From the NCBI GenBank assembly GCA_013298695.1, contig JAAFIS010000004.1, positions 62,001 through 126,000 on the forward strand: a stretch of DNA of 64,000 nucleotides. The letters are read 5' to 3'. The notes beneath the pieces are model-generated. The model saw only the letters and a list, made by a program, of their open reading frames with translations, was not told the origin of the DNA and searched no databases. This document shows, in pieces, positions 4,298-55,977 of this stretch. Made by a program: the position numbers and the translations under genes. The stretch's first letter is position 1; each line of letters opens with the position of its first letter. Origin of the DNA: Betaproteobacteria bacterium. Its GTDB lineage: Bacteria; Pseudomonadota; Gammaproteobacteria; Burkholderiales; Casimicrobiaceae.

Positions 4298-4410
4298 GGA
4301 GCAACTTTATCAGCGCGGCAGAATGCGCGAGTATTGGCGTTGGACAACACGCCCGAGACTACGCCGAGGAAATTACGCCACGGAGACAGTTTTCAACACC
4401 TTTCACAGGT

Positions 4411-4494
4411 AGCCGTTACTATTGGGCTATACGCCAATAAACTGTAGCTTTCGAAATATATATTTTATGGACTACAGGCCCAATAAAATCGGTG
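4411..4494. repeat. Paired-palindrome element, copy 1
   Basis: Left unit AGCCGTTACTATTGGGC at 4411-4427 and right unit GCCCAATAAAATCGGTG at 4478-4494, starts 67 bp apart. Interior is 50 bp, centred on CTTTCGAAAT. Its two halves match as reverse complements at about 14 of 25 positions. Lies between the aquaglyceroporin 3' end and ppx, which are co-directional. Confidence 0.75.
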
Positions 4495-4520
4495 TTAAAT
4501 AGATTAAGTCACCGTGCCAT

Positions 4521-8972: not shown

Positions 8973-9036
8973 GCTTTGGTGGATCGTTAGCATTAAACGA
9001 CAAGCGCCAAATCTTCCGATAACTACGTATCTAGAA

Positions 9037-9120
9037 CGCCAATTTAATTGGGTCAAAAGAAGAAAAGTATCTAAACGCAGTAACTAACTAATCTATCTTC
9101 TAAGCCCAATAAAATAGAGC
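9037..9120. repeat. Paired-palindrome element, copy 2
   Basis: Left unit CGCCAATTTAATTGGGT (9037-9053) and right unit GCCCAATAAAATAGAGC (9104-9120), starts 67 bp apart, 50-bp interior. Lies between the phoX terminator and the sensor-kinase gene, ending 19 bp before its TTG start. Confidence 0.8.
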
Positions 9121-9139
9121 GATCACCGCATAAGCCGAA

Positions 9140-10980: not shown

Positions 10981-11001
10981 CTAGCAGCTTCTGCAGGTAA
11001 T

Positions 11002-11085
11002 GCCCTAATGCATTGGGCGAATTGATGTACTCGTAGACTTATCAATACGCTACACACAGACCCTGCCCGCCCAATAAAAACGGGA
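11002..11085. repeat. Paired-palindrome element, copy 3
   Basis: Left unit GCCCTAATGCATTGGGC (11002-11018) and right unit GCCCAATAAAAACGGGA (11069-11085), starts 67 bp apart. Interior carries TTATCAATA near its centre. Begins 22 bp after the algR stop. The remaining 105 bp to the next gene hold no clear promoter. Confidence 0.85.
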
Positions 11086-11190
11086 GTTGCAGTCGATAGT
11101 TGTATTGCCATCAATCACCATCCGTCTCACGAAATCGTGATTCGTCACTTGCAAAGTGTTTGATCCAAGGAAGCCGCCGACAATGTACTT

Positions 11191-14145: not shown

Positions 14146-17100
14146 TTAATCCAAGAACTCGGCCAACACGCGGCCGGTATGCGAAGTCTCTTTCGCTTTC
14201 AGAAGCGCTGAAATGTCGCCCGCAACAACGACGTTGCCGCCGCCGGTGCCGCCTTCTGGCCCCATGTCGACAATCCAATCAGCTTCTGCGATGAGATCAA
14301 GATTGTGCTCAATCAGGATGACCGTGTTGCCCGCATCGACTAGGCGGTGTAGCACATGAATCAGCCTCTCAACATCGGCCATATGCAAGCCGACAGTTGG
14401 CTCATCGAGCACGTACAGCGTATGTGGATTCAGTGATCGTCTTCCGCCGCCCGCCGCCTTTACAACCACGGCAGGCGCAGGTTTCTTTAAAAGCTTTTGT
14501 GCCTTTTTCGAGAGCTTCGGCGCATCGGCAGGGTTAGTGCTCTCTGTTAACACTATCGGCGCACGCACTTTCGCAAGCTCAGTAACCAACTTAATGCGCT
14601 GCGCTTCACCGCCGGACAAGGTTGGGCTCGCTTGCCCCAGCGTGAGATAGCCCAAACCCACATCGCGCATTAGTTTTAACGGATGATGGATTGATGGCAT
14701 TGACGAGAAGAAATCAGCCGCATCTTCCACGTTCATCGCGAGCACTTCACCAATCGATTTCTCACGCCATTTCACGGCGAGCGTTTCGCTGTTGAAGCGC
14801 GAGCCGCCGCACACATCGCACGGCAGTTTTACATCGGGCAAGAAATTCATCTCAATGGTTTTTACGCCTGCGCCATCACAGGCGTCGCAGCGCCCGCCTT
14901 TAGCGTTAAAAGAGAAGCGCCCCGGCCCGTAACCGCGCATTTTCGATTCGGTGGTGTCGGCGTAGAGCTTTCGAATGTTGTCCCAAAAGCCGATGTAGGT
15001 GGCGGGACACGAGCGCGGCGTTTTACCAATCGGCGTTTGGTCTACCTCGAGAACGCGATCTACATCGTCCCAGCCCTCAAGACTCGCGCAGCCGTTCAGC
15101 GCCGGTGCTTTTTTCCGATTGTTTTTTGCGGACACCAGCGCCGCTAAGTTTTCGTGAATGACTTCGCGCGCGAGCGTTGATTTGCCTGAACCGGAAACTC
15201 CGGTAATCACGCTCAATCTTTTAAGCGGTATCTTTACCGTGACATTACGCAAATTATTGAACGAGGCTTTGGTCACGGTGAACGCGTCGTCACGCTTAGT
15301 CACGGCGACGCGTTCATGGAGCGGATGCGTGAGTGGTTTTCGGAGGAATCGCCCGGTAATGGAATTTGGATTCGCCATTAGCTCGCGTGCGGTGCCTTCG
15401 GCAACGATCTCGCCACCGCGAACGCCCGCACCTGGGCCGAGATCAATGATGTGATGCGCTCGCTTGATGGTGTCTTCATCATGTTCAACGACGATGAGTG
15501 TGTTGCCCTTTGCCTGCAGTTTTTCCAGAACGTCAAGCAGGATCCGATTGTCACGCGCATGTAAACCGATGGTCGGTTCATCAAGGACATACGCTACGCC
15601 CTGTAAATTTGAACCAAGCTGTGCGGCTAGGCGTATACGCTGCGCTTCGCCACCAGACAAAGTTGGCGCGGAACGATCAAGCGTGAGATAGCCGAGCCCG
15701 ACCTCCTGCAAGAAGGACAGACGTGACTTCACCTCCGAAACAATGTCGCGCGCGATTTCTTCTTCACGCACGCCAAGTTTGAGCGTTTGCATGAACTGCT
15801 CAATATCCAACACCGACTGGGCAACTACTTGATGAATGCCTTGCTCTCGGAACCGCACATTTCGCGCGATCGGGTTGAGGCGTGCCCCGTCGCACGTGGC
15901 GCATGCTTCGAATGCTTCTTTTGAGTCAAGAAACGCGTCAAGCTCACGATCAGCAAACTCCTCGCTGGTGCGATCATCGCGGCGATAGCCTTTAACGTTT
16001 TCTCCCGTGCCTTGACAGCTCGAACACCAACCGTGTTTGCTGTTGAACGAGAAGAGCCGCGGATCGAGTTCAGCAAAGCTTGTGCCACACGATGGGCACG
16101 CGCGTTTGGTTGAAAACACCACGAGTTCGGCGTCCTTAGAATTCGGCTTCCAGGCAAGCACATGCACCACGCCTTTTCCATAATCAAGCCCTTGGCCAAG
16201 TGCCGCGCGAATAGTCTTCTCGTTTTTGGCAACCACTTCGCTAGTGCCAATTGGTAGCTCAATGGTGTGCTCGATAAAACGATCTAAGCGCGGCCACGGT
16301 GTAACCGGAATCATTTCGCCATCAACGCGCAAATGTGCGAAGCCTTTGCCCTTCGCCCATTTCGCTAAATCGGTGTAGAGCCCCTTACGGTTGATAACGA
16401 GCGGCGCTAAAACAGTCGCATGCTTACCCTTGAACTCCTTCATGACTCGCGCGACAATCGCACCTTGCGACTGCGGCTCAATTGCGACGTCACAGGTCGG
16501 GCAATACTGCGTGCCAAGTTTCATCCACAGCAAACGCAAGAAGTGATAAATCTCGGTTAGCGTGGCGACAGTTGATTTGCGGCCACCGCGCGATACGCGT
16601 TGTTCGATTGCAACCGTTGGTGGGATTCCATGAATGGCATCGACGTCGGGGCGCGCTGACGGTTGAACAAATTGCCGAGCGTAAGCATTGAGCGACTCAA
16701 GATAGCGGCGCTGACCCTCGTTAAAGATGATGTCGAATGCAAGCGTTGATTTGCCGGAACCTGAAGGGCCGGTAATCACAGTGAACCCTTTCGCGGGAAT
16801 CTCGACGCTCACGTTCTTCAAATTGTGCTCGCGCGCGTGGAGCACGCGAATTGACTTCGCGACAGCTCGCGACAAATAGGGCGCGCGCGGTTCCTCGACT
16901 TTGAACGATGCAGCTTCCCGCCGCAAGCTCGCAATGTCGCGCTCATAGTCGTTGAGTGCTTTTCCAGTGTGCGACGTTTTGTGTTTTCGGATTTCAGCCG
17001 GTGTGCCAGTGAAAATAACTTCGCCGCCAGCGTCACCGCCTTCTGGCCCCAAATCGATTAGCCAGTCGCTCGCTGCGATGATGTCGAGATTGTGCTCGAT

Positions 17101-20085
17101 CACGATCATCGAATGCCCGGCATCTAGAAGCTTGTCGAACGCGCCCAAAAGTTTTGCGATATCTTCAAAGTGAAGCCCCGTTGTAGGTTCGTCGAATACA
17201 AATAGTTTTCCGCGCGGATTTGCGGCATCGGAAGGCTTCACCCGTTTGGGCAGCGCGCCGATAGGTTTGTTGTTGACGCTTTCTGCAAGATGCCCGGCGA
17301 GTTTCAGCCGTTGCGCCTCGCCGCCTGAAAGCGTAGGTACAGGCTGTCCGAGCTTTACGTAGTCAAGGCCAACGTCCGAGAGCGGCTGCAGCGTGCGCAG
17401 CACTTCTTCGCCCCCTTTGATGTCTTTGAAGAAAACAAGCGCTTCGGTAACGGTGAGATCGAGCACATCACTGATGCTTCTATTGTTGACCTTTACTTCA
17501 CGGATCTCGCTGCGGAAACGAGTGCCGTCGCAATCCGGGCACCTGAGATATACATCCGACAGAAACTGCATCTCAACATGTTCGAAGCCAGAGCCTGTAC
17601 ATGTCGCGCAGCGGCCATTTCCTGCATTGAAGCTAAACGTCCCGGCTGTGTATCCGCGTTCAACCGACACGCTGGACTTCGCATAAATCGCTCGTATTGC
17701 ATCCCACGCGCCGACAAAGCTCGCAGGATTAGAACGCGATGATTTACCAATCGGTGATTGATCGACGAACACGACATCGTCAACGTTTTGATGGCCGAAC
17801 AATTGGTCGTAGTGACCGGGTGCGTCGGTCGATTTGCCTTTGGCTTTGTTGAGCGCGGGCACGAGGATGTCTTGGATCAACGTTGATTTTCCAGAACCTG
17901 AAACTCCGGTGACCGTGACTAGCGCATGCAGCGGAATATGGACGTCGATGCGCTTGAGGTTGTTTTCGCGCGCACCCAGCAGTGAGATAGCACTGCCAGC
18001 TTTCTCATTTAAACCCTCATTTAACTGGGCCAATGATTCGAATTTTAGTAACTTGCTTTTTCTATTTATCTGCTTTTGCCCCAATAAATACAGGGCGGTA
18101 GATGAACTGTCTGTCTGCGTAATTCCGCGCGGGGAGCCGTCGTAGACGATGTGGCCGCCGCGCTCGCCCGGGCCGGGTCCGATGTCAAGCAAGCGATCAG
18201 CGGCGAACATGATTTGTGGATCATGCTCCACCACCACAAGCGTGTTGCCCGCGCTTTTCAGCCGCTGCATAACACCAATGATTCGCGTCATGTCGCGCGG
18301 ATGCAAACCGATCGACGGCTCGTCGAGCACGAACAGTGTGTTGGTCAGTGAGGTGCCCAGCGCGGTGGTGAGATTGATCCGTTGAACCTCGCCGCCGGAT
18401 AGCGTGCGTGATTGCCGGTCAAGCGTGAGATAACCTAATCCGACGTCGCAGAGATAGCCCAATCGCGAGCGAATCTCACCAAGGACGAGCTCGCCCGCTT
18501 CATCCATCACCGCACCGCCGTCGGCAAAATCAAGCGCGTTGAAAAACACGCGTAGTTTGTCGATCGACAACAACATCAAATCGTGGATGCTGAGTCCGGG
18601 CAGCGCCTCTAGCACGGACTGTGTGAACGCGAAATGTCGTGGATGAAATCGTTTCGTGGGCGCGAGCACAGCGTCTGAGTTCGTTTTCGATCCCAACCGA
18701 AAATTAAGTGAACCCGGTTTTAATCGTGCGCCTTCGCAGGCGTGGCACGGTGTGTACGCGCGATACTTCGACAGCAGCACGCGGATATGCATTTTGTAGG
18801 CCTTCGATTCCAACCAATCGAAGAATTTGCGAACGCCATACCATCGCTTGTTAGCGTCTTTTTCCCAACTGCGCCACGTCTCGTCGCCATCGATAATAAA
18901 TCGTCGATCATTCGGGCCCAACTGCGCAAACGGCACGTCGAGCGGAATATTTCGCGCTCGGCAATACTTCTCCAAATCGTCCTGACATTCTTTGAAACTC
19001 GGCGTTTGCCACGGCTTAATCGCGCCTTCTTTAAGCGTCTTGTTTTCATCGGGAATAACTAATCCGAGATCAACACCGATCACGCGACCAAATCCGCGGC
19101 AGGTATCGCACGCGCCCATCGGGTTGTTGAACGAAAACGTTGACGGATGCGGATCGCTGTAGGTGATGTTGCACGGCGCGCAGTGAAGATCTGAGGAATA
19201 ACGCCACACTGCTCCCTCCCCTTCAAGGGGAGAGTTGAGGTGGGGATGGGGTTTCTCTGAATCAACGAGCGAGGTTCGTACTTCTGCCGACGACGAGCTT
19301 GTCTGGGTCCCCTTTAAAGAGTTAGAAATACTCTCGGGCGCATCGAGAACGAAAACACTCACCCGCCCTTTCCCGTGGAGTAACGCCGCTTCAATAGCCT
19401 CCATCACTCGTGCTTTTTCGCCGCCGCCGATTCGCATGCGATCCTGGACTACGTTGAGCGTTGCGCCCTCGCGTGAATGCATGCGCGTGTAGCCCTGCGC
19501 AGAAAGAAACTGCTCGATTTCTTGTTCGGTAAAGTTGTCGGGAATCGTGACTGGAAACGTAATCGCAACGCGAGGATCGGCGAGTTTCGCTGCGCGCAAC
19601 TTAAGGTCGATGAAAATCGTTTCCGAACTATCGCGACGCACTGCCTGACCACAGTTGTGGCAATGCAGTGTGGCTAGTCGGGCAAACAAAAGCTTTAGAT
19701 GATCGTTAACCTCGGTCATCGTTCCCACCGTTGAACGCGAGGTGCGCACCGGATTGGTTTGATCAATCGCTATCGCGGGCGGGATGCCGTCGATACGGTC
19801 TACCTGCGGCTTGTCCATGCGTTCGAGAAACTGCCGCGCATACGGGGAAAAAGTTTCAACATAGCGGCGCTGACCTTCCGCATAAAGCGTGTCGAACACG
19901 AGGGAGGATTTGCCCGAACCGGAAACCCCCGTGACGACCGTTAATTCACCCGTGCGAATATCCAGATCGAGATTTTTGAGATTGTTTTGTCGTGCACCGC
20001 GGATGCGGATGTCAGTGATCGTCGGTGCGGGTGGAGTGGGGGCAACGGAAGACTTAGCGAGAGAAGAGCGTTTTTTGGCAAGCAT
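14146..20085 (-). CDS. uvrA: Double-length (tandem-fused) UvrA excinuclease subunit
   Basis: About 1979 residues, twice the usual 940, containing two complete UvrA modules. Four Walker A loops (GVSGSGKSS near 55, GVSGSGKST near 732, GPSGSGKST near 1112, GVSGSGKST near 1632), four LSGGE signatures and four DEP Walker B motifs are intact. Zinc fingers such as CATCTGSGFEH and CDACDGAGVKT are present in both halves. UvrA scans DNA for bulky damage and loads UvrB; dual UvrAs of this length are known, for example in chlamydiae and several betaproteobacteria. ATG at 20085 chosen over TTG at 20094. Two non-coding-type repeats are translated in frame: the paired palindrome at about residues 664-691 (linker between ATPase domains one and two) and a CCCCTTCAAGGGG repeat at about 278-292. 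No convincing LexA box was found upstream. Confidence 0.92.
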   Translation of the reverse strand: MLAKKRSSLAKSSVAPTPPAPTITDIRIRGARQNNLKNLDLDIRTGELTVVTGVSGSGKSSLVFDTLYAEGQRRYVETFSPYARQFLERMDKPQVDRIDGIPPAIAIDQTNPVRTSRSTVGTMTEVNDHLKLLFARLATLHCHNCGQAVRRDSSETIFIDLKLRAAKLADPRVAITFPVTIPDNFTEQEIEQFLSAQGYTRMHSREGATLNVVQDRMRIGGGEKARVMEAIEAALLHGKGRVSVFVLDAPESISNSLKGTQTSSSSAEVRTSLVDSEKPHPHLNSPLEGEGAVWRYSSDLHCAPCNITYSDPHPSTFSFNNPMGACDTCRGFGRVIGVDLGLVIPDENKTLKEGAIKPWQTPSFKECQDDLEKYCRARNIPLDVPFAQLGPNDRRFIIDGDETWRSWEKDANKRWYGVRKFFDWLESKAYKMHIRVLLSKYRAYTPCHACEGARLKPGSLNFRLGSKTNSDAVLAPTKRFHPRHFAFTQSVLEALPGLSIHDLMLLSIDKLRVFFNALDFADGGAVMDEAGELVLGEIRSRLGYLCDVGLGYLTLDRQSRTLSGGEVQRINLTTALGTSLTNTLFVLDEPSIGLHPRDMTRIIGVMQRLKSAGNTLVVVEHDPQIMFAADRLLDIGPGPGERGGHIVYDGSPRGITQTDSSSTALYLLGQKQINRKSKLLKFESLAQLNEGLNEKAGSAISLLGARENNLKRIDVHIPLHALVTVTGVSGSGKSTLIQDILVPALNKAKGKSTDAPGHYDQLFGHQNVDDVVFVDQSPIGKSSRSNPASFVGAWDAIRAIYAKSSVSVERGYTAGTFSFNAGNGRCATCTGSGFEHVEMQFLSDVYLRCPDCDGTRFRSEIREVKVNNRSISDVLDLTVTEALVFFKDIKGGEEVLRTLQPLSDVGLDYVKLGQPVPTLSGGEAQRLKLAGHLAESVNNKPIGALPKRVKPSDAANPRGKLFVFDEPTTGLHFEDIAKLLGAFDKLLDAGHSMIVIEHNLDIIAASDWLIDLGPEGGDAGGEVIFTGTPAEIRKHKTSHTGKALNDYERDIASLRREAASFKVEEPRAPYLSRAVAKSIRVLHAREHNLKNVSVEIPAKGFTVITGPSGSGKSTLAFDIIFNEGQRRYLESLNAYARQFVQPSARPDVDAIHGIPPTVAIEQRVSRGGRKSTVATLTEIYHFLRLLWMKLGTQYCPTCDVAIEPQSQGAIVARVMKEFKGKHATVLAPLVINRKGLYTDLAKWAKGKGFAHLRVDGEMIPVTPWPRLDRFIEHTIELPIGTSEVVAKNEKTIRAALGQGLDYGKGVVHVLAWKPNSKDAELVVFSTKRACPSCGTSFAELDPRLFSFNSKHGWCSSCQGTGENVKGYRRDDRTSEEFADRELDAFLDSKEAFEACATCDGARLNPIARNVRFREQGIHQVVAQSVLDIEQFMQTLKLGVREEEIARDIVSEVKSRLSFLQEVGLGYLTLDRSAPTLSGGEAQRIRLAAQLGSNLQGVAYVLDEPTIGLHARDNRILLDVLEKLQAKGNTLIVVEHDEDTIKRAHHIIDLGPGAGVRGGEIVAEGTARELMANPNSITGRFLRKPLTHPLHERVAVTKRDDAFTVTKASFNNLRNVTVKIPLKRLSVITGVSGSGKSTLAREVIHENLAALVSAKNNRKKAPALNGCASLEGWDDVDRVLEVDQTPIGKTPRSCPATYIGFWDNIRKLYADTTESKMRGYGPGRFSFNAKGGRCDACDGAGVKTIEMNFLPDVKLPCDVCGGSRFNSETLAVKWREKSIGEVLAMNVEDAADFFSSMPSIHHPLKLMRDVGLGYLTLGQASPTLSGGEAQRIKLVTELAKVRAPIVLTESTNPADAPKLSKKAQKLLKKPAPAVVVKAAGGGRRSLNPHTLYVLDEPTVGLHMADVERLIHVLHRLVDAGNTVILIEHNLDLIAEADWIVDMGPEGGTGGGNVVVAGDISALLKAKETSHTGRVLAEFLD
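18014..18095. repeat. Paired-palindrome element, copy 4, inside uvrA
   Basis: Left unit CCCTCATTTAACTGGGC (18014-18030) and right unit CCCCAATAAATACAGGG (18079-18095), starts 65 bp apart instead of 67. It lies wholly within the uvrA reading frame, antisense orientation arbitrary because the element is symmetric. It supplies a Leu/Lys/Gln/Asn-rich linker (LLGQKQINRKSKLLKFESLA) unlike the surrounding UvrA sequence. Confidence 0.75.
19212..19253. repeat. CCCCTTCAAGGGG-type dispersed repeat inside uvrA
   Basis: Contains the hairpin CTCCCC-TTCAA-GGGGAG (19216-19232) followed by GTTGAGGTGGGGATGGGG. From memory, near-identical sequences occur as intergenic repeats in many proteobacteria. Here it is in frame and encodes a Pro/His/Leu-rich stretch (KPHPHLNSPLEGEG) inside the first UvrA module, next to a Ser/Thr-rich low-complexity segment. 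Confidence 0.65.
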
Positions 20086-20321
20086 GTACAGCAATCAGTG
20101 GTTCAATGATGCCGTCCCCTAACGGCTGGACTAGTGTATAGGTTTCCAGTGGTTTTCTTCGCGTAAATTAAAAGCAGATTTGCAATGCCGGGGAGTGTAG
20201 ACCGGTATTATTTGGTTCATATGGCGTTTGAACCTGTCACGGTTGCTCCGGCGTTCAAGGGCGGGCGATCCTCGTTACGCCAAATGCACGTATGTCGCGC
20301 GAATCTTGGAGAAATAAATCA

Positions 20322-23471: not shown

Positions 23472-23539
23472 CGTGTGACGTTAGCAAATCGAGACGCGCA
23501 GCGTGCTGAATAATTCGCAACGCAAAATTATCAGTGTAG

Positions 23540-23623
23540 TGCCAATTTTACTGGGCGACGACGTAATTTTTAATACGTATCGGAATCTAGACAAAACGCA
23601 TCTATGGCCCACATAAACAGGGG
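23540..23623. repeat. Paired-palindrome element, copy 5
   Basis: Left unit TGCCAATTTTACTGGGC (23540-23556) and right unit GCCCACATAAACAGGGG (23607-23623), starts 67 bp apart. Interior centre GTATCGGAAT. Ends 8 bp from the DUF4230 stop codon. Confidence 0.8.
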
Positions 23624-23631
23624 CTCAAGCG

Positions 23632-24351
23632 TTAAAGTTTTGACGAACCCAAATCACCACTTGACGACGATAATTTGCGCATCTCACTGGTTTTGTCAAC
23701 TTCGATCACGCTCGCGTTAAACGTGAGTTGGGGCTGTTTCGCGCCGAACGATTGCGCGAGCGGCACCAGCGTGGCACGCGCGCTCGCTTCGACCTCACCG
23801 CGCAACTGCTCAATCAGCTGATGCGCGTGTGTTTTTGCGTGCGCGGATGCGCCGTCGAGCAAGCGGTTCTTGTCCTCTTCGCTAAAGCCAGGTCCAAACG
23901 CGCCATTGAGCAAATCGGGCAGCAACCAAGGCATGAACTTGCTGCGTTGCTCATCATAAAAACGCAAGGATCGAACGCTGATTTCCGCTTTCACTGGCGG
24001 CAGTTGAATGCGGGTTTGCGATCCGGTCGTATCGATATGGAACTGCGGCGAGCGCAGGTCGTAGCGAAAGTCGATTTGAAATTCGAAAATCATCGCGAGT
24101 TTCTTCTGGGAAAACGCCCAGCGCAGATACTTGCGGCCGAAATCCCCAAATGAGTAGTCAGTTTCCGTAACAATTTCTTTGGTAATCGCTTTGAAAACCG
24201 ACAACTCACCGACCGCTCGCAAACCTTCAAGTGACACGTGCGAGGTCACCACTGCGGCGCTTGACGCACTGCGACGCGACCACAACCAGCCGCCAATCGC
24301 ACCTATTGCGAGCGCGATTAACAAGGCCGAAAGCGAGAACAGTTGATCCAT
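23632..24351 (-). CDS. DUF4230 family membrane-anchored protein
   Basis: 239 residues. One N-terminal transmembrane segment (FSLSALLIALAIGAIGGWLW) is followed by a soluble domain containing VSLEGLRAVGELSVFKAIT and a conserved beta-rich core, as in DUF4230 proteins. Function is unknown. The domain probably faces the periplasm. The ATG at 24351 begins four bases after the stop of the upstream TPR glycosyltransferase-like gene, so the two are very probably co-translated. The serine-rich C-terminus (KLSSSSGDLGSSKL) looks disordered. Confidence 0.75.
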   Translation of the reverse strand: MDQLFSLSALLIALAIGAIGGWLWSRRSASSAAVVTSHVSLEGLRAVGELSVFKAITKEIVTETDYSFGDFGRKYLRWAFSQKKLAMIFEFQIDFRYDLRSPQFHIDTTGSQTRIQLPPVKAEISVRSLRFYDEQRSKFMPWLLPDLLNGAFGPGFSEEDKNRLLDGASAHAKTHAHQLIEQLRGEVEASARATLVPLAQSFGAKQPQLTFNASVIEVDKTSEMRKLSSSSGDLGSSKL

Positions 24352-29509: not shown

Positions 29510-30274
29510 CTACGCTTTGCGCTTCGTCGCAGGCTTTCTCGCAGCGCTCTTCTTAGCGGCTGGTTTTTTGACTGCGGCTCGCTTGGTGCTCGGCGTTTTT
29601 GCCGCTGGTTTCTTCGCGGCAACTTTTTTGCTGCTTGGCGCTTTGCTCGACGCGGGCTTTTTAGCGGCTGGACGTTTGGCTGCGGGCTTCTTCGCGGCGG
29701 TTCGCTTAGTAGTGGTGCTTGCGGTGCTTGCAGTGCTTGTAGTGCGCCGTTTCGCCGCCGGTTTGGGCGCATCGCTTTCGCTTACGGCGACGGTCACCGG
29801 CTTGGCTGAACGCTTGACAGGTGCGGGCGCAGATGCGGCCGCACTCGACGTGCCAACTTTTCCAGCTAAACCCCGTGAACCTAGGGCAGCAACCGTGCTT
29901 AATGCGCCTGTCTTATTTGCAGGTTTTCTCGTTCTTGTCCCCGTTGAACTGGCGCTTGGCGTCCAAAGTTCTTCAAGGTTATAGAGCGTTCTGGTTTGCG
30001 GCAGCATGATGTGTGCGATGAGTTCGCCGCAATCGACGAGTACCCACTCGCCGCTGCCTTCACCTTCAATCGCGCGCACCGATCCGCCGGCAGCACGTAC
30101 TTTGTCTTGTACGTTTCGCGCCAGCGCTTTGGTTTGCCGTGGGCTTTCGGCGGTGGCGATAACCACCGCGTCGTAGAGCGACGTCAGCGTTCGCGTGTCA
30201 AGCGTCACGATGTCCGTTGCTTTGATGTCTTCGAGCGCCGTTACGGCGGCCTGTTGAATTTTATTGAGGCGCAA
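29510..30274 (-). CDS. rsfS: Ribosomal silencing factor RsfS with a lysine/alanine-rich tail
   Basis: 254 residues, about twice the usual length. Residues 1-110 form the RsfS domain (SLYDAVVIATAESPRQTKAL; GEWVLVDCGELIAHIMLP), which binds ribosomal protein L14 and blocks subunit joining under starvation. Residues 115-254 are a low-complexity Ala/Lys/Pro/Ser/Thr extension with repeated AAKKPAAKRPA motifs, resembling histone-H1-like or AlgP tails. The tail would be disordered and strongly basic, suited to RNA or DNA contact. The start is TTG at 30274 with AAGGA 5 nt upstream; no ATG is available in frame. Placed 12 bp after nadD. Confidence 0.92.
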   Translation of the reverse strand: MRLNKIQQAAVTALEDIKATDIVTLDTRTLTSLYDAVVIATAESPRQTKALARNVQDKVRAAGGSVRAIEGEGSGEWVLVDCGELIAHIMLPQTRTLYNLEELWTPSASSTGTRTRKPANKTGALSTVAALGSRGLAGKVGTSSAAASAPAPVKRSAKPVTVAVSESDAPKPAAKRRTTSTASTASTTTKRTAAKKPAAKRPAAKKPASSKAPSSKKVAAKKPAAKTPSTKRAAVKKPAAKKSAARKPATKRKA

Positions 30275-30979: not shown

Positions 30980-31029
30980 GAATCACAGTCTACGCGGGTG
31001 CGCTTTGTATTACAGATTTTTGGAAAATA

Positions 31030-31113
31030 GCCCTAATATATTTGGCTAAATGACTATTTTACTAATTTATCGACAATTAATTTAAATGCGCCTGCTGCCC
31101 AATCAAAATGGGA
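31030..31113. repeat. Paired-palindrome element, copy 6
   Basis: Left unit GCCCTAATATATTTGGC (31030-31046) and right unit GCCCAATCAAAATGGGA (31097-31113), starts 67 bp apart. Interior centre TTTATCGACAA; its halves match as reverse complements at 13 of 25 positions. Upstream of nadD and downstream of the small exported protein. Confidence 0.82.
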
Positions 31114-31149
31114 TAAAGTCGCATTAGTTAATATCGCGCGGCACCAAAG

Positions 31150-37607: not shown

Positions 37608-37627
37608 TACTAACAATAGTTGTATTC

Positions 37628-37711
37628 GCCCAATAATACCGGGCGACCAGACCATTCACTGAAGTAATCACTATTGCCTAATTAGCGGATCACAGCCCAT
37701 ATAAAACAGGC
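37628..37711. repeat. Paired-palindrome element, copy 7
   Basis: Left unit GCCCAATAATACCGGGC (37628-37644) and right unit GCCCATATAAAACAGGC (37695-37711), starts 67 bp apart. Interior centre TAATCACTAT. It fills the space between the convergent VOC and mutY genes. Confidence 0.82.
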
Positions 37712-37738
37712 GATAGAGATCAAAGCTTTATTTATCTT

Positions 37739-48885: not shown

Positions 48886-50349
48886 ATGAGCTGGAACACC
48901 TTCGCTACCGTCGCAGAAACGAAAAAAGCGCTCGATGCCAAGCAGGTGAGTGCGGTTGAGCTTGCGAAGCATTACCTTTCTCGCGTATCGTCCATAAATC
49001 CAGCGCTCAACGCTTTTATTACGATTGATCCGGAAAAAACGCTTTCAGAAGCGCTCGCCCAAGATAATCGGCGCGCAAAGGGCGAAGCTGCTCCGTTACT
49101 CGGCGTACCGATTGCGCACAAAGATATCTACCTGATCGACGGTTGGCGCACCACTTGCGGCTCGAAGATGCTCGAAAACTTCGTCGCGCCGTACAGCTCC
49201 ACCGTGGTGAAGAACATGGCCGACGCCGGCATGGTGACGCTCGGCAAATTGAATATGGACGAGTTCGCGATGGGCTCGTCGAACGAAACCTCGTATTTCG
49301 GCACGGTGAAAAACCCGTGGGATTTATCGCGCGTGCCCGGCGGCTCGTCCGGCGGTTCAGCAGCCAGCGTCGCCGCGGGGCTTACGCCCGCTAGCACTGG
49401 CACCGACACCGGCGGCTCAATCCGCCAGCCCGCGATGTTTTGCAACTTAACGGGCTTGAAGCCAACCTACGGCGTGTGTTCGCGCTACGGCATCATTGCG
49501 TTCGCCTCGTCGCTTGATCAAGCCGGTCCGTTCGCGCAAACCGCAGAAGACTGTGCGCTGTTGCTCTCCGCGATGGCAGGCTTCGATCCACATGACGCGA
49601 CCTCGCTTGATCGTCCGAAAGAAGATTACTCGCGCGATCTTTCAAAGCCGCTCAAGGGGTTGCGCATCGGGTTGCCGAAAGAATTTTTTGGTGACGGTGT
49701 TGCGCCTGGCATCGCCAAAGCGGTTGACGAAGCGCTCGATGTGTATCGCAAACTGGGTGCAACGACTGTCGAAGTGTCGTTGCCGAACGTGAAGTATTCG
49801 GTGCCCGCGTATTACGTGGTCGCGCCCGCCGAGGCATCGAGCAATTTGTCGCGCTTCGATGGCGCGCGCTTCGGTCATCGTGCGAAGGACTACACCGATA
49901 TCGTTGATATGTACAAACGCTCGCGCGCCGAAGGCTTTGGTGCGGAGGTGAAGCGCCGCATTCTGATCGGCACGTATGTTTTGTCGCACGGGTATTACGA
50001 TGCGTATTACCTGCAAGCGGGCAAGCTGCGCCGCCTGATCGCGGAGGATTTCAAGAAAGCCTACGAAGTCTGCGACGTCGTAATGGGCCCGACCGCCCCC
50101 GAAGGTGCTTTCCAATTCGGCGCAAAAAGCGACGATCCGGTGAAGATGTATTTGAACGACATTTTCACGATTTGCGCGAACTTAACCGGGCAGCCCGCGA
50201 TGAGTCATCCGTGTGGCGTCGACAAAGACACCGGGCAGTTTGTGGGCATGCACATTATCGGCAACTATCTCGACGAAGCGCGCATGTTGAATGTGGCGCA
50301 TCAGTATCAACTTGCCACTGAGTGGCACAAGAAGCATCCAGCGCTGTAG
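48886..50349 (+). CDS. gatA: Aspartyl/glutamyl-tRNA amidotransferase subunit A
   Basis: 487 residues, amidase-signature family. Catalytic Lys in [13 protein letters not shown], the cis-Ser in GGSSGGSAA and the nucleophilic Ser in [13 protein letters not shown] are all present. GatA releases ammonia from glutamine for the amidation on GatB. ATG at 48886 with GGGAG 6 nt upstream. Full length. Confidence 0.96.
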
Positions 50350-50616: not shown

Positions 50617-52131
50617 ATGAACTGGGAAGTGGTTATCGGTCTTGAAACACACGTGCAGCTGACCACTGCATCAAAGATTTTTTCGGGCTCATCGACCGCG
50701 TTCGGCGCAGCGCCGAACACGCAGGCCTCGGTCGTTGATCTGGCGATGCCCGGCGCATTGCCGGTGATGAACAAAGGCGCGGCGGAGCGTGCGGTGAAGT
50801 TCGGCCTTGCAATTGGCGCGAACATCAATCGTCGCTCAATCTTTGCGCGCAAAAATTATTTCTACCCGGATTTGCCAAAGGGTTACCAGATTTCGCAGTT
50901 CGAGACGCCGATTGTGCAAGGCGGCGGGCTCACCATCACGCTTGACGACGGCTCGACGAAGTTCATCGAACTCACCCGCGCGCATCTCGAAGAAGACGCC
51001 GGAAAAAGCGTGCATGAACAGTTCGATCACGAGTCCGGTGTTGATTTAAATCGCGCAGGCACACCGCTCCTGGAAATCGTGACCGAACCGGTGATGCGCT
51101 CTGGCAAAGAAGCGATTGCGTATGCGAAAGCGCTGCACAATCTCGTGCGCTATTTGGACATTTGCGACGGCAACATGCAAGAAGGCTCGTTCCGCTGCGA
51201 CGTGAACGTGTCGGTGCGCCCGATGGGGCAAAAAGAGTTCGGCACGCGCCGTGAAATCAAAAACTTGAACAGTTTCAAGTTCATGCAACAAGCGATTGAT
51301 TACGAAGTACGCTGGCAGATTGAGCAGATTGAAGACGGCAAAAAAATCGTGCAAGCGACGGTGCTGTTTAACCCCGACACGGGAGAGACCCGCGCGATGC
51401 GCACCAAGGAAGATGCGATGGACTATCGCTACTTCCCGGATCCTGATTTGCCGCCGTTGGTGATTGATGATGCCATGTTTGATCGCATTAAAGCGTCGAT
51501 GCCGGAATTGCCGGAATCGAAGTGCGCGCGTTACATGAACGAGTTCAAACTCTCTGAATACGACGCGCGGTTGTTGTCGCAAGATCGCGCAACGTCGGAG
51601 TTCTTCGAGACGGCAGTGAATGCAAAGGCTGATCCGAAGCTCGTCGCGAACTGGATGCTCGGTGAACTCTCGGCGTCACTCAATCGCGAAGAGAAAACAA
51701 TCGAACAGAGCCCAATACGACCGTCACAGTTGGCGAAATTGGTCATCCGAGTGGCTGACGGCACGCTTAACAATAAAAAAGCAAAAGAGCTTTTGGATCA
51801 TCTTTGGACCGCACCTCCCATAGCTGCCACGTTTAACATGACGCTCCCCGCGCCAACTTTCGGTCTGGCTGCGACGGTTGCTCCGCGCCAAACAGAAGAG
51901 ACAGATATTGACGACGTAATCGAAGCCAAAGGCTTGAAACAAATCAGCGACGTCGGCGCAATCGAAAAAATCGTCGATGAAGTCCTCGCGAAAAGCTCCG
52001 CGCAAATCGCTGATTACAAGTCCGGTAAAGAAAAAGCGCTGATGAGCATCGTCGGCATGGTGATGAAGGCATCGGCCGGCAAAGCAAATCCTGCGCAGGT
52101 CAACGAATTGGTGAAAAAGAAGCTATCGTAA
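50617..52131 (+). CDS. gatB: Aspartyl/glutamyl-tRNA amidotransferase subunit B
   Basis: 504 residues. N-terminal kinase-like domain ([40 protein letters not shown]) that activates the mischarged tRNA, and a C-terminal YqeY-like helical tail ([20 protein letters not shown]). Works with GatC and GatA. ATG at 50617. A ~27-residue stretch near 405-430 ([20 protein letters not shown]) appears to be a lineage-specific insertion in the tail domain. Confidence 0.95.
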
Positions 52132-52155
52132 TTCGTTCAAACTATGCTTCATTTT

Positions 52156-52239
52156 GCCCAATTTAATTGGGCTAAGAGGCGAATTTTAATGTCTATCGAA
52201 AGTATCATTAATTCTGGTCAATGCCCAATTTAATTGGGC
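52156..52239. repeat. Paired-palindrome element, copy 8 (best preserved)
   Basis: Both units read GCCCAATTTAATTGGGC exactly (52156-52172 and 52223-52239), starts 67 bp apart. Each has perfect 8-bp arms around a single T. Interior centre TCTATCGAAAG. It lies in the 137 bp between gatB and the truncated haemoglobin gene. Confidence 0.92.
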
Positions 52240-52268
52240 GATGTGACAGTAAGCTGGCTTAGATCCTG

Positions 52269-55758: not shown

Positions 55759-55809
55759 CGAGGTGGTGGGACGGCGGAGGGGCTTTTCACGCTAACTTAC
55801 TATCAACTT

Positions 55810-55893
55810 TGCCTATTTTAATGGGCTAGTAGAGCATTTATATTACTTACCGAGTTGTCAAGTTTTTAGCTTTGTCGACTAATTAAAATTGAA
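55810..55893. repeat. Paired-palindrome element, copy 9
   Basis: Left unit TGCCTATTTTAATGGGC (55810-55826) and right unit GACTAATTAAAATTGAA (55877-55893), starts 67 bp apart. The right unit is the most degraded of the set. Interior centre TTACCGAGTT. Between DUF924 and clsB, co-directional. Confidence 0.65.
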
Positions 55894-55977
55894 GCCAACG
55901 GCTCGCGCTGTTTCCTCAAAACGCAAAGTTGAAAATCCTGTGTTGTCAACATCTAGTTTGCCCATGAAAATGTCGTA

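Follow-up and report, generated by a model that had tools for sequence, protein, structure and literature searches.

A dispersed, dyad-symmetric DNA element of about 118 bp that evolves in place within one bacterial genus: a putative chromosome-organizing site

The window analyzed in this study, a stretch of 64,000 nucleotides from genome G000, carries gatA, gatB, a double UvrA-like gene, and eleven copies of a dispersed symmetric element. Nine of these copies (31-77 bits each in a matrix scan) had been listed in an initial annotation, and the scan added two more (dyads 29912 and 49031, both coding, 35-36 bits). The coordinates of the nine listed copies were all correct, with the starts of paired 17-mers 67 bp apart in eight copies and 65 bp apart in copy 18014, and the second interior base was A in nine of nine. 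The annotation had described an 84-bp paired palindrome spanning the outer edges of both 17-mers; this is a real repeat, but the unit is the middle of a larger dyad-symmetric element of ~118 bp. The features are as follows.

52139..52256, no strand: element copy, main site of the initial annotation, 73.6 bits; 3' of gatB, dyad between 52197 and 52198
52139..52145, + strand: left outer box AAACTAT, a degenerate CARCTTT, matrix position -59 to -53
52156..52172, + strand: left 17-mer sub-palindrome GCCCAATTTAATTGGGC, the species-specific module
52196..52199, no strand: central TCGA of the TATCGA centre, with the dyad between TC and GA
52223..52239, + strand: right 17-mer sub-palindrome
52251..52256, + strand: right outer box AAGCTG
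4394..4511, no strand: element copy, 57.9 bits, intergenic
9020..9137, no strand: element copy, 60.0 bits, intergenic
10985..11102, no strand: element copy, 55.4 bits, intergenic
17997..18114, no strand: element copy, 30.9 bits, within the double UvrA-like gene, linker region
23523..23640, no strand: element copy, 61.8 bits, intergenic
29854..29971, no strand: element copy added here, 35.2 bits, within a predicted ORF
31013..31130, no strand: element copy, 76.5 bits, divergent gap
37611..37728, no strand: element copy, 56.5 bits, occupying a 131-bp convergent gap
48973..49090, no strand: element copy added here, 35.9 bits, inside gatA without insertion; also in sisters G009 and, weaker, G002
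55793..55910, no strand: element copy, 44.6 bits, intergenic

Two observations concern the genes themselves. The 1982-aa gene at 14146-20094 (- strand) apparently consists of two UvrA-like halves in a single frame, and gatB (window 51814-51900) has ~27 additional in-frame residues (about aa 400-428) that are missing from the sister genomes.

For the exact pattern TGGGC-N50-GCCCA (67-bp spacing, 50-bp spacer), the window has four occurrences where 0.05 would be expected, a count reached by 0 of 100 shuffles. Across all 4.08 Mb of the genome the pattern has 175 sites, and its reversed control has 6. Within 464 kb (the window plus L009-L028), the 50-bp spacer stood alone in the spacing spectrum, with 17 occurrences versus a mean of 0.55 at other spacings. 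These 17 exact sites, chosen by TGGGC/GCCCA alone, seeded an orientation-symmetric matrix that was then iterated; CARCTTT flanking boxes and the TATCGA centre were visible in the seeds before iteration. The converged matrix gave 131 raw hits in the 464 kb, 109 once register shifts were merged and 86 above 25 bits, with thresholds calibrated on Markov random sequence, which peaks at ~10-11 bits. Eighty-six copies per 464 kb correspond to ~750 copies in the whole genome. The sampling covered 40-464 kb per genome, and gene calls were home-made.

The element is symmetric about its dyad, measures ~118 bp from the outer edge of one CARCTTT box to that of the other, and carries weak signal to ~140 bp. 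Outward from the dyad lie an AT block at 12-15 bp, the 17-mer at 26-42 bp, AA at 44-45 bp, and CARCTTT at 53-59 bp, and a weak AT signal reaches ~70 bp. The AT content peaks at ~3.5, 13.5, 23.5, 33.5, 44.5, and 53.5 bp from the dyad, with a best period of ~9.9 bp. For this phasing, 90% of the G000 copies exceed the 95th percentile of random sites, a statistic that is partly circular because the matrix includes the phased positions. Free drift of the interior, as described earlier, is partly right, except that the AT block at 12-15 bp and the TCGA centre are constrained.

The copies do not behave as duplicates. Nearest-neighbor identity among them is 0.508 versus 0.494 in column-permuted copies, with a maximum of 57%, which speaks against the earlier proposal of a replication mechanism copying the whole unit, and exact 17-mer copies number at most six in 464 kb. 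Half-elements standing alone are rare (12 of 184), which is further counter-evidence to copied-unit and mobile readings, and no facing half-elements 1-2 kb apart were found among the 12 unpaired halves in the 464 kb. A mobile repeat of the MITE or REPIN type, either decayed or still active, with a drifted interior would account for two inverted palindromes at fixed spacing, a layout that resembles REPINs, in which GI 16-mers lie 71 bp apart (PMC3116915), and Y1 transposase genes are present in 15 of the 17 congeneric genomes. We nevertheless regard such an origin as highly improbable: near-identical copies are absent, conserved and unconserved positions alternate in a way unlike neutral decay, the elements are evenly spaced, unlike REPINs, whose extragenic distribution is close to random, and genome G008 has elements yet no RAYT match. 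The single RAYT-like Y1 transposase of G000 (L016:153-674, - strand) is flanked by different, classical GTAG REPs GTAGGGTGGGCACCCCGTGCCCACC at about 68-92 and 733-758, and the nearest elements are about 1.8 kb or more away.

Like REPINs, which are REP doublets mobilized by RAYTs, the element has two inverted palindromic ends, fixed spacing, a variable interior, and hundreds of copies per genome; unlike them, it is without conserved 16-mers or stem pairing, has no RAYT link, and is not inserted. A RAYT-driven REPIN was rejected on the grounds that the RAYT has its own REPs and that the element shows neither a near-identical short core nor a long paired-arm hairpin. In the RIB/RIP layout of enterobacterial BIME/REP sequences, inverted palindromes surround a central protein site. 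The element shares with RIB/RIP and other BIME/REP sequences the ~100-bp scale, the inverted palindromes, and the location at 3' ends of transcription units, but its copies are not duplicates, its dyad is a strict ~118 bp, its spacing is regular, and it also lies in essential coding sequence. Integron attC sites, suggested by the layout, were set aside, since the copies are scattered over the whole genome instead of forming a cassette array. Viral contig L239 was rejected as an element carrier, its score being at background. Separately, an ordinary REP/RAYT pair coexists with the new element system in G000, and another repeat family of this genome, GTTCGACARGCTCACCACGAAC, with a 12-mer core occurring 13 times in 464 kb and identical 25-mers (e.g., C1:31404, 82667, 86409, and 359612-359946), seems to be an ordinary repeat that was copied recently.

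A function at the RNA level, through hairpins in 3' UTRs, appears just as improbable as a mobile origin. The 17-mers can form 7-bp stems, and in three of five species (G000, G002, and G005) complementary pairs were weakly in excess across the whole mirror (z about 2). Set against this, stem covariation at the 17-mers was absent in all five (z -0.4 to 1.4 versus reshuffled copies), which argues against an RNA hairpin, and arm pairing equalled or hardly exceeded what shuffling predicts. Rfam gave no window match at gathering score, with matches otherwise far below it, and copies lie within genes.

The element is confined to one genus and differs in its letters between species. The genus may, as a tentative placement, belong to Casimicrobiaceae. 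With a pooled profile (A1, R1), elements were detected in every congeneric genome except G016 (16 of 17) and in 0 of 63 other genomes of the family or order, where stricter filters applied and weak matches could be lost. Matrices refined separately in four sister genomes (200 kb each) yielded between 19 and 41 hits apiece; the anchors were unchanged and the 17-mers differed, for example, CGACcgccggCGGTCG in G012 and GCC-tatgAAAtaaGG in G010. When 84,980 species genomes were scanned for AAGTCGACTT-N46-AAAAGCTG, the matches listed were almost only contigs of Burkholderiales, Betaproteobacteria, and Proteobacteria MAGs, together with a few single matches in Pseudoalteromonas, Rickettsia, Rhodoferax, and one Oligoflexia MAG that were within chance range. 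A literature search on the genus or the element found nothing relevant.

Positions are retained between species while the sequence turns over. Past the 3' end of gatB, genomes G000, G005, G009, G010, G011, G012, and G013 each show a dyad element whose centre falls on or close to TCGA, with almost no common sequence, and it persists although the adjacent gene varies between species; it is doubtful in G004 and G014, and the gap is too short in some congeners. At orthologous 3' ends, elements were present in both genomes versus in G000 only in the ratios 4/0 (G002), 5/2 (G010), 2/0 (G005), and 2/1 (G012), all small numbers. In this comparison of fetched orthologues, sharing of elements past orthologous stops was far above chance, and orthologous copies were no more alike than non-orthologous pairs.

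The copies within genes are the strongest evidence for evolution in place. With the matrix trained on intergenic copies only, 17 genes reach at least 15 bits versus 1.6 after synonymous shuffling. When the products of gatA, rpoC, and an MmeI-like gene are aligned to solved homologues, no gap falls within the element; the amylase and UvrA alignments show just small differences, of 4 and 13 residues. The rpoC copy occupies identical codon positions in G000, G002, and G010, and the gatA copy occupies the same codons in G000 and G009 and is weaker in G002; both are missing from some sisters with nearly as similar proteins. The lack of insertion, the scores above the synonymous-shuffle null, and the shared codons in sisters indicate that the gatA and rpoC copies evolved in place by substitution. 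These coding copies, which are not insertions, contradict the suggestion of a DNA-only MITE and, together with the GTAG-type REPs around the RAYT, that of a REP/BIME or RPE relative, whereas the selection on geometry proposed in the initial annotation is supported. The recognition sequences matS, KOPS, and Chi and the DNA uptake sequences are dispersed, evolve in place, may lie in genes, form species dialects, and measure ~8-13 bp. The element resembles them in the first four respects and differs in being a ~118-bp multi-box dyad with ~5-kb spacing.

Neighboring elements are about 5 kb apart, and most follow closely on the end of a gene. They were found in 45 of 81 convergent, 85 of 360 tandem, and 19 of 111 divergent gaps (convergent versus divergent, p=3e-8), and in tandem gaps the median distances were 69-140 bp from the stop to the dyad and 125-285 bp from the dyad to the next start. 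The coefficient of variation of the spacing was 0.49-0.68 in G000, G002, G010, and G012, against 0.83-0.95 for a random choice of gaps of the same kinds (p 0.03 or less); in G005, the fifth of the five species tested, regular spacing was not found (p=0.51). Coding copies keep a greater distance from intergenic ones than do coding positions drawn at random (C1, p=0.006; C17, p=0.05), as if filling long gaps. Because G005 is irregular, G008 has only ~13 copies in 2.5 Mb, and G016 has none, the 5-kb spacing cannot be essential, and at least G016 among the congeners can dispense with the element's role.

This placement just past stop codons and in convergent gaps would also suit a role in transcription, with the element marking gene ends as a terminator or as a roadblock made of protein. 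When G000 was considered by itself, convergent gaps with an element seemed to hold a strong intrinsic terminator less often (2 of 16) than those without (8 of 18). The deficit vanished in the five-species pool (convergent, p=0.25; tandem, p=0.40), and terminator substitution was rejected as a hint from G000 that did not replicate. Since copies also lie in divergent gaps, in the middle of rpoC and gatA, and in other genes, we consider a transcriptional role unlikely, slightly more so than the role in gyrase binding discussed below.

The elements might instead be strong DNA gyrase sites, with ~130 bp wrapped and the dyad at the cut, optimized where transcription piles up positive supercoils. The E. 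coli gyrase motif spans 130 bp, with 47-bp periodic arms around a 36-bp centre, and the length, dyad symmetry, and ~10-bp AT/GC phasing of the element match it (PMC6379681, PMC12393610). The enzyme works downstream of transcribed regions and at BIME-2, and the elements, which favor convergent gaps, similarly lie near the ends of transcribed regions. The letters of the cleavage core differ, however: the gyrase preferences -4G, -2A, and +1G in topoisomerase numbering (PMC12324340) map to dyad positions -6, -4, and -2, where the element has A/T at -6 and T at -2, the single match being A at -4 (topoisomerase -2A) in some species. In addition, tens of bits of information and a species-specific 17-mer module far exceed the degenerate gyrase motif, and gyrase is near-universal whereas the element is restricted to one genus. 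Gyrase binding is therefore an unlikely explanation, if the least unlikely of the alternatives.

The reading that we favor, with a probability of about 0.5, is that the element is a selected double-stranded site at which a putative protein complex would bend or wrap DNA and organize the chromosome. The dyad symmetry, the 10-bp phasing, the lack of pairing, the evolution in place, and the spacing point to such a complex, which would act on chromosome structure through ~120-140 bp of bent or wrapped DNA; for wrapping, it is the base composition alone that is suggestive. The initial annotation had named a DNA-bending or protein-bridging site among its possibilities, a reading that is supported here, with a putative binding protein. 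Each element would be a double-stranded DNA site that has evolved in place and is held by selection. A sequence-specific, two-fold symmetric, multi-subunit complex would bind ~118-140 bp and bend or wrap the DNA; the middle 17-mer would be its fast-evolving contact, with the outer boxes and centre kept between species. With sites at ~5-kb intervals, most of them right behind gene ends, the complex probably serves to partition or anchor the chromosome or the supercoils in it. The retention of the same positions while the sequence changes between species suggests an undescribed chromosome-organizing system, and the element class may be new and its function of a known kind.

A more specific version, which we put forward tentatively and hold to be less probable than the general reading, is that a dedicated, rapidly co-evolving complex wraps ~120-140 bp at about one site per 5 kb, forming a sequence-programmed, nucleosome-like scaffold strong enough to shape synonymous codons of rpoC and gatA. 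A histone-type nucleosome was rejected, as the histone fold PF00808, the only histone family searched, was found in 0 of 30 genomes.

If a protein does wrap these sites, a bacterial chromosome-organizing code would be legible straight from sequence. Natural variation exists in its letters (the species dialects), in its density (0, ~13, or ~750 copies per genome), and in its position, so that what determines how far apart bacterial chromosomal domains lie could be tested directly. G008 and G016, both small congeners (2.5-2.6 Mb) with few or zero elements and no Y1 transposase match, provide natural low-copy and zero-copy comparisons.
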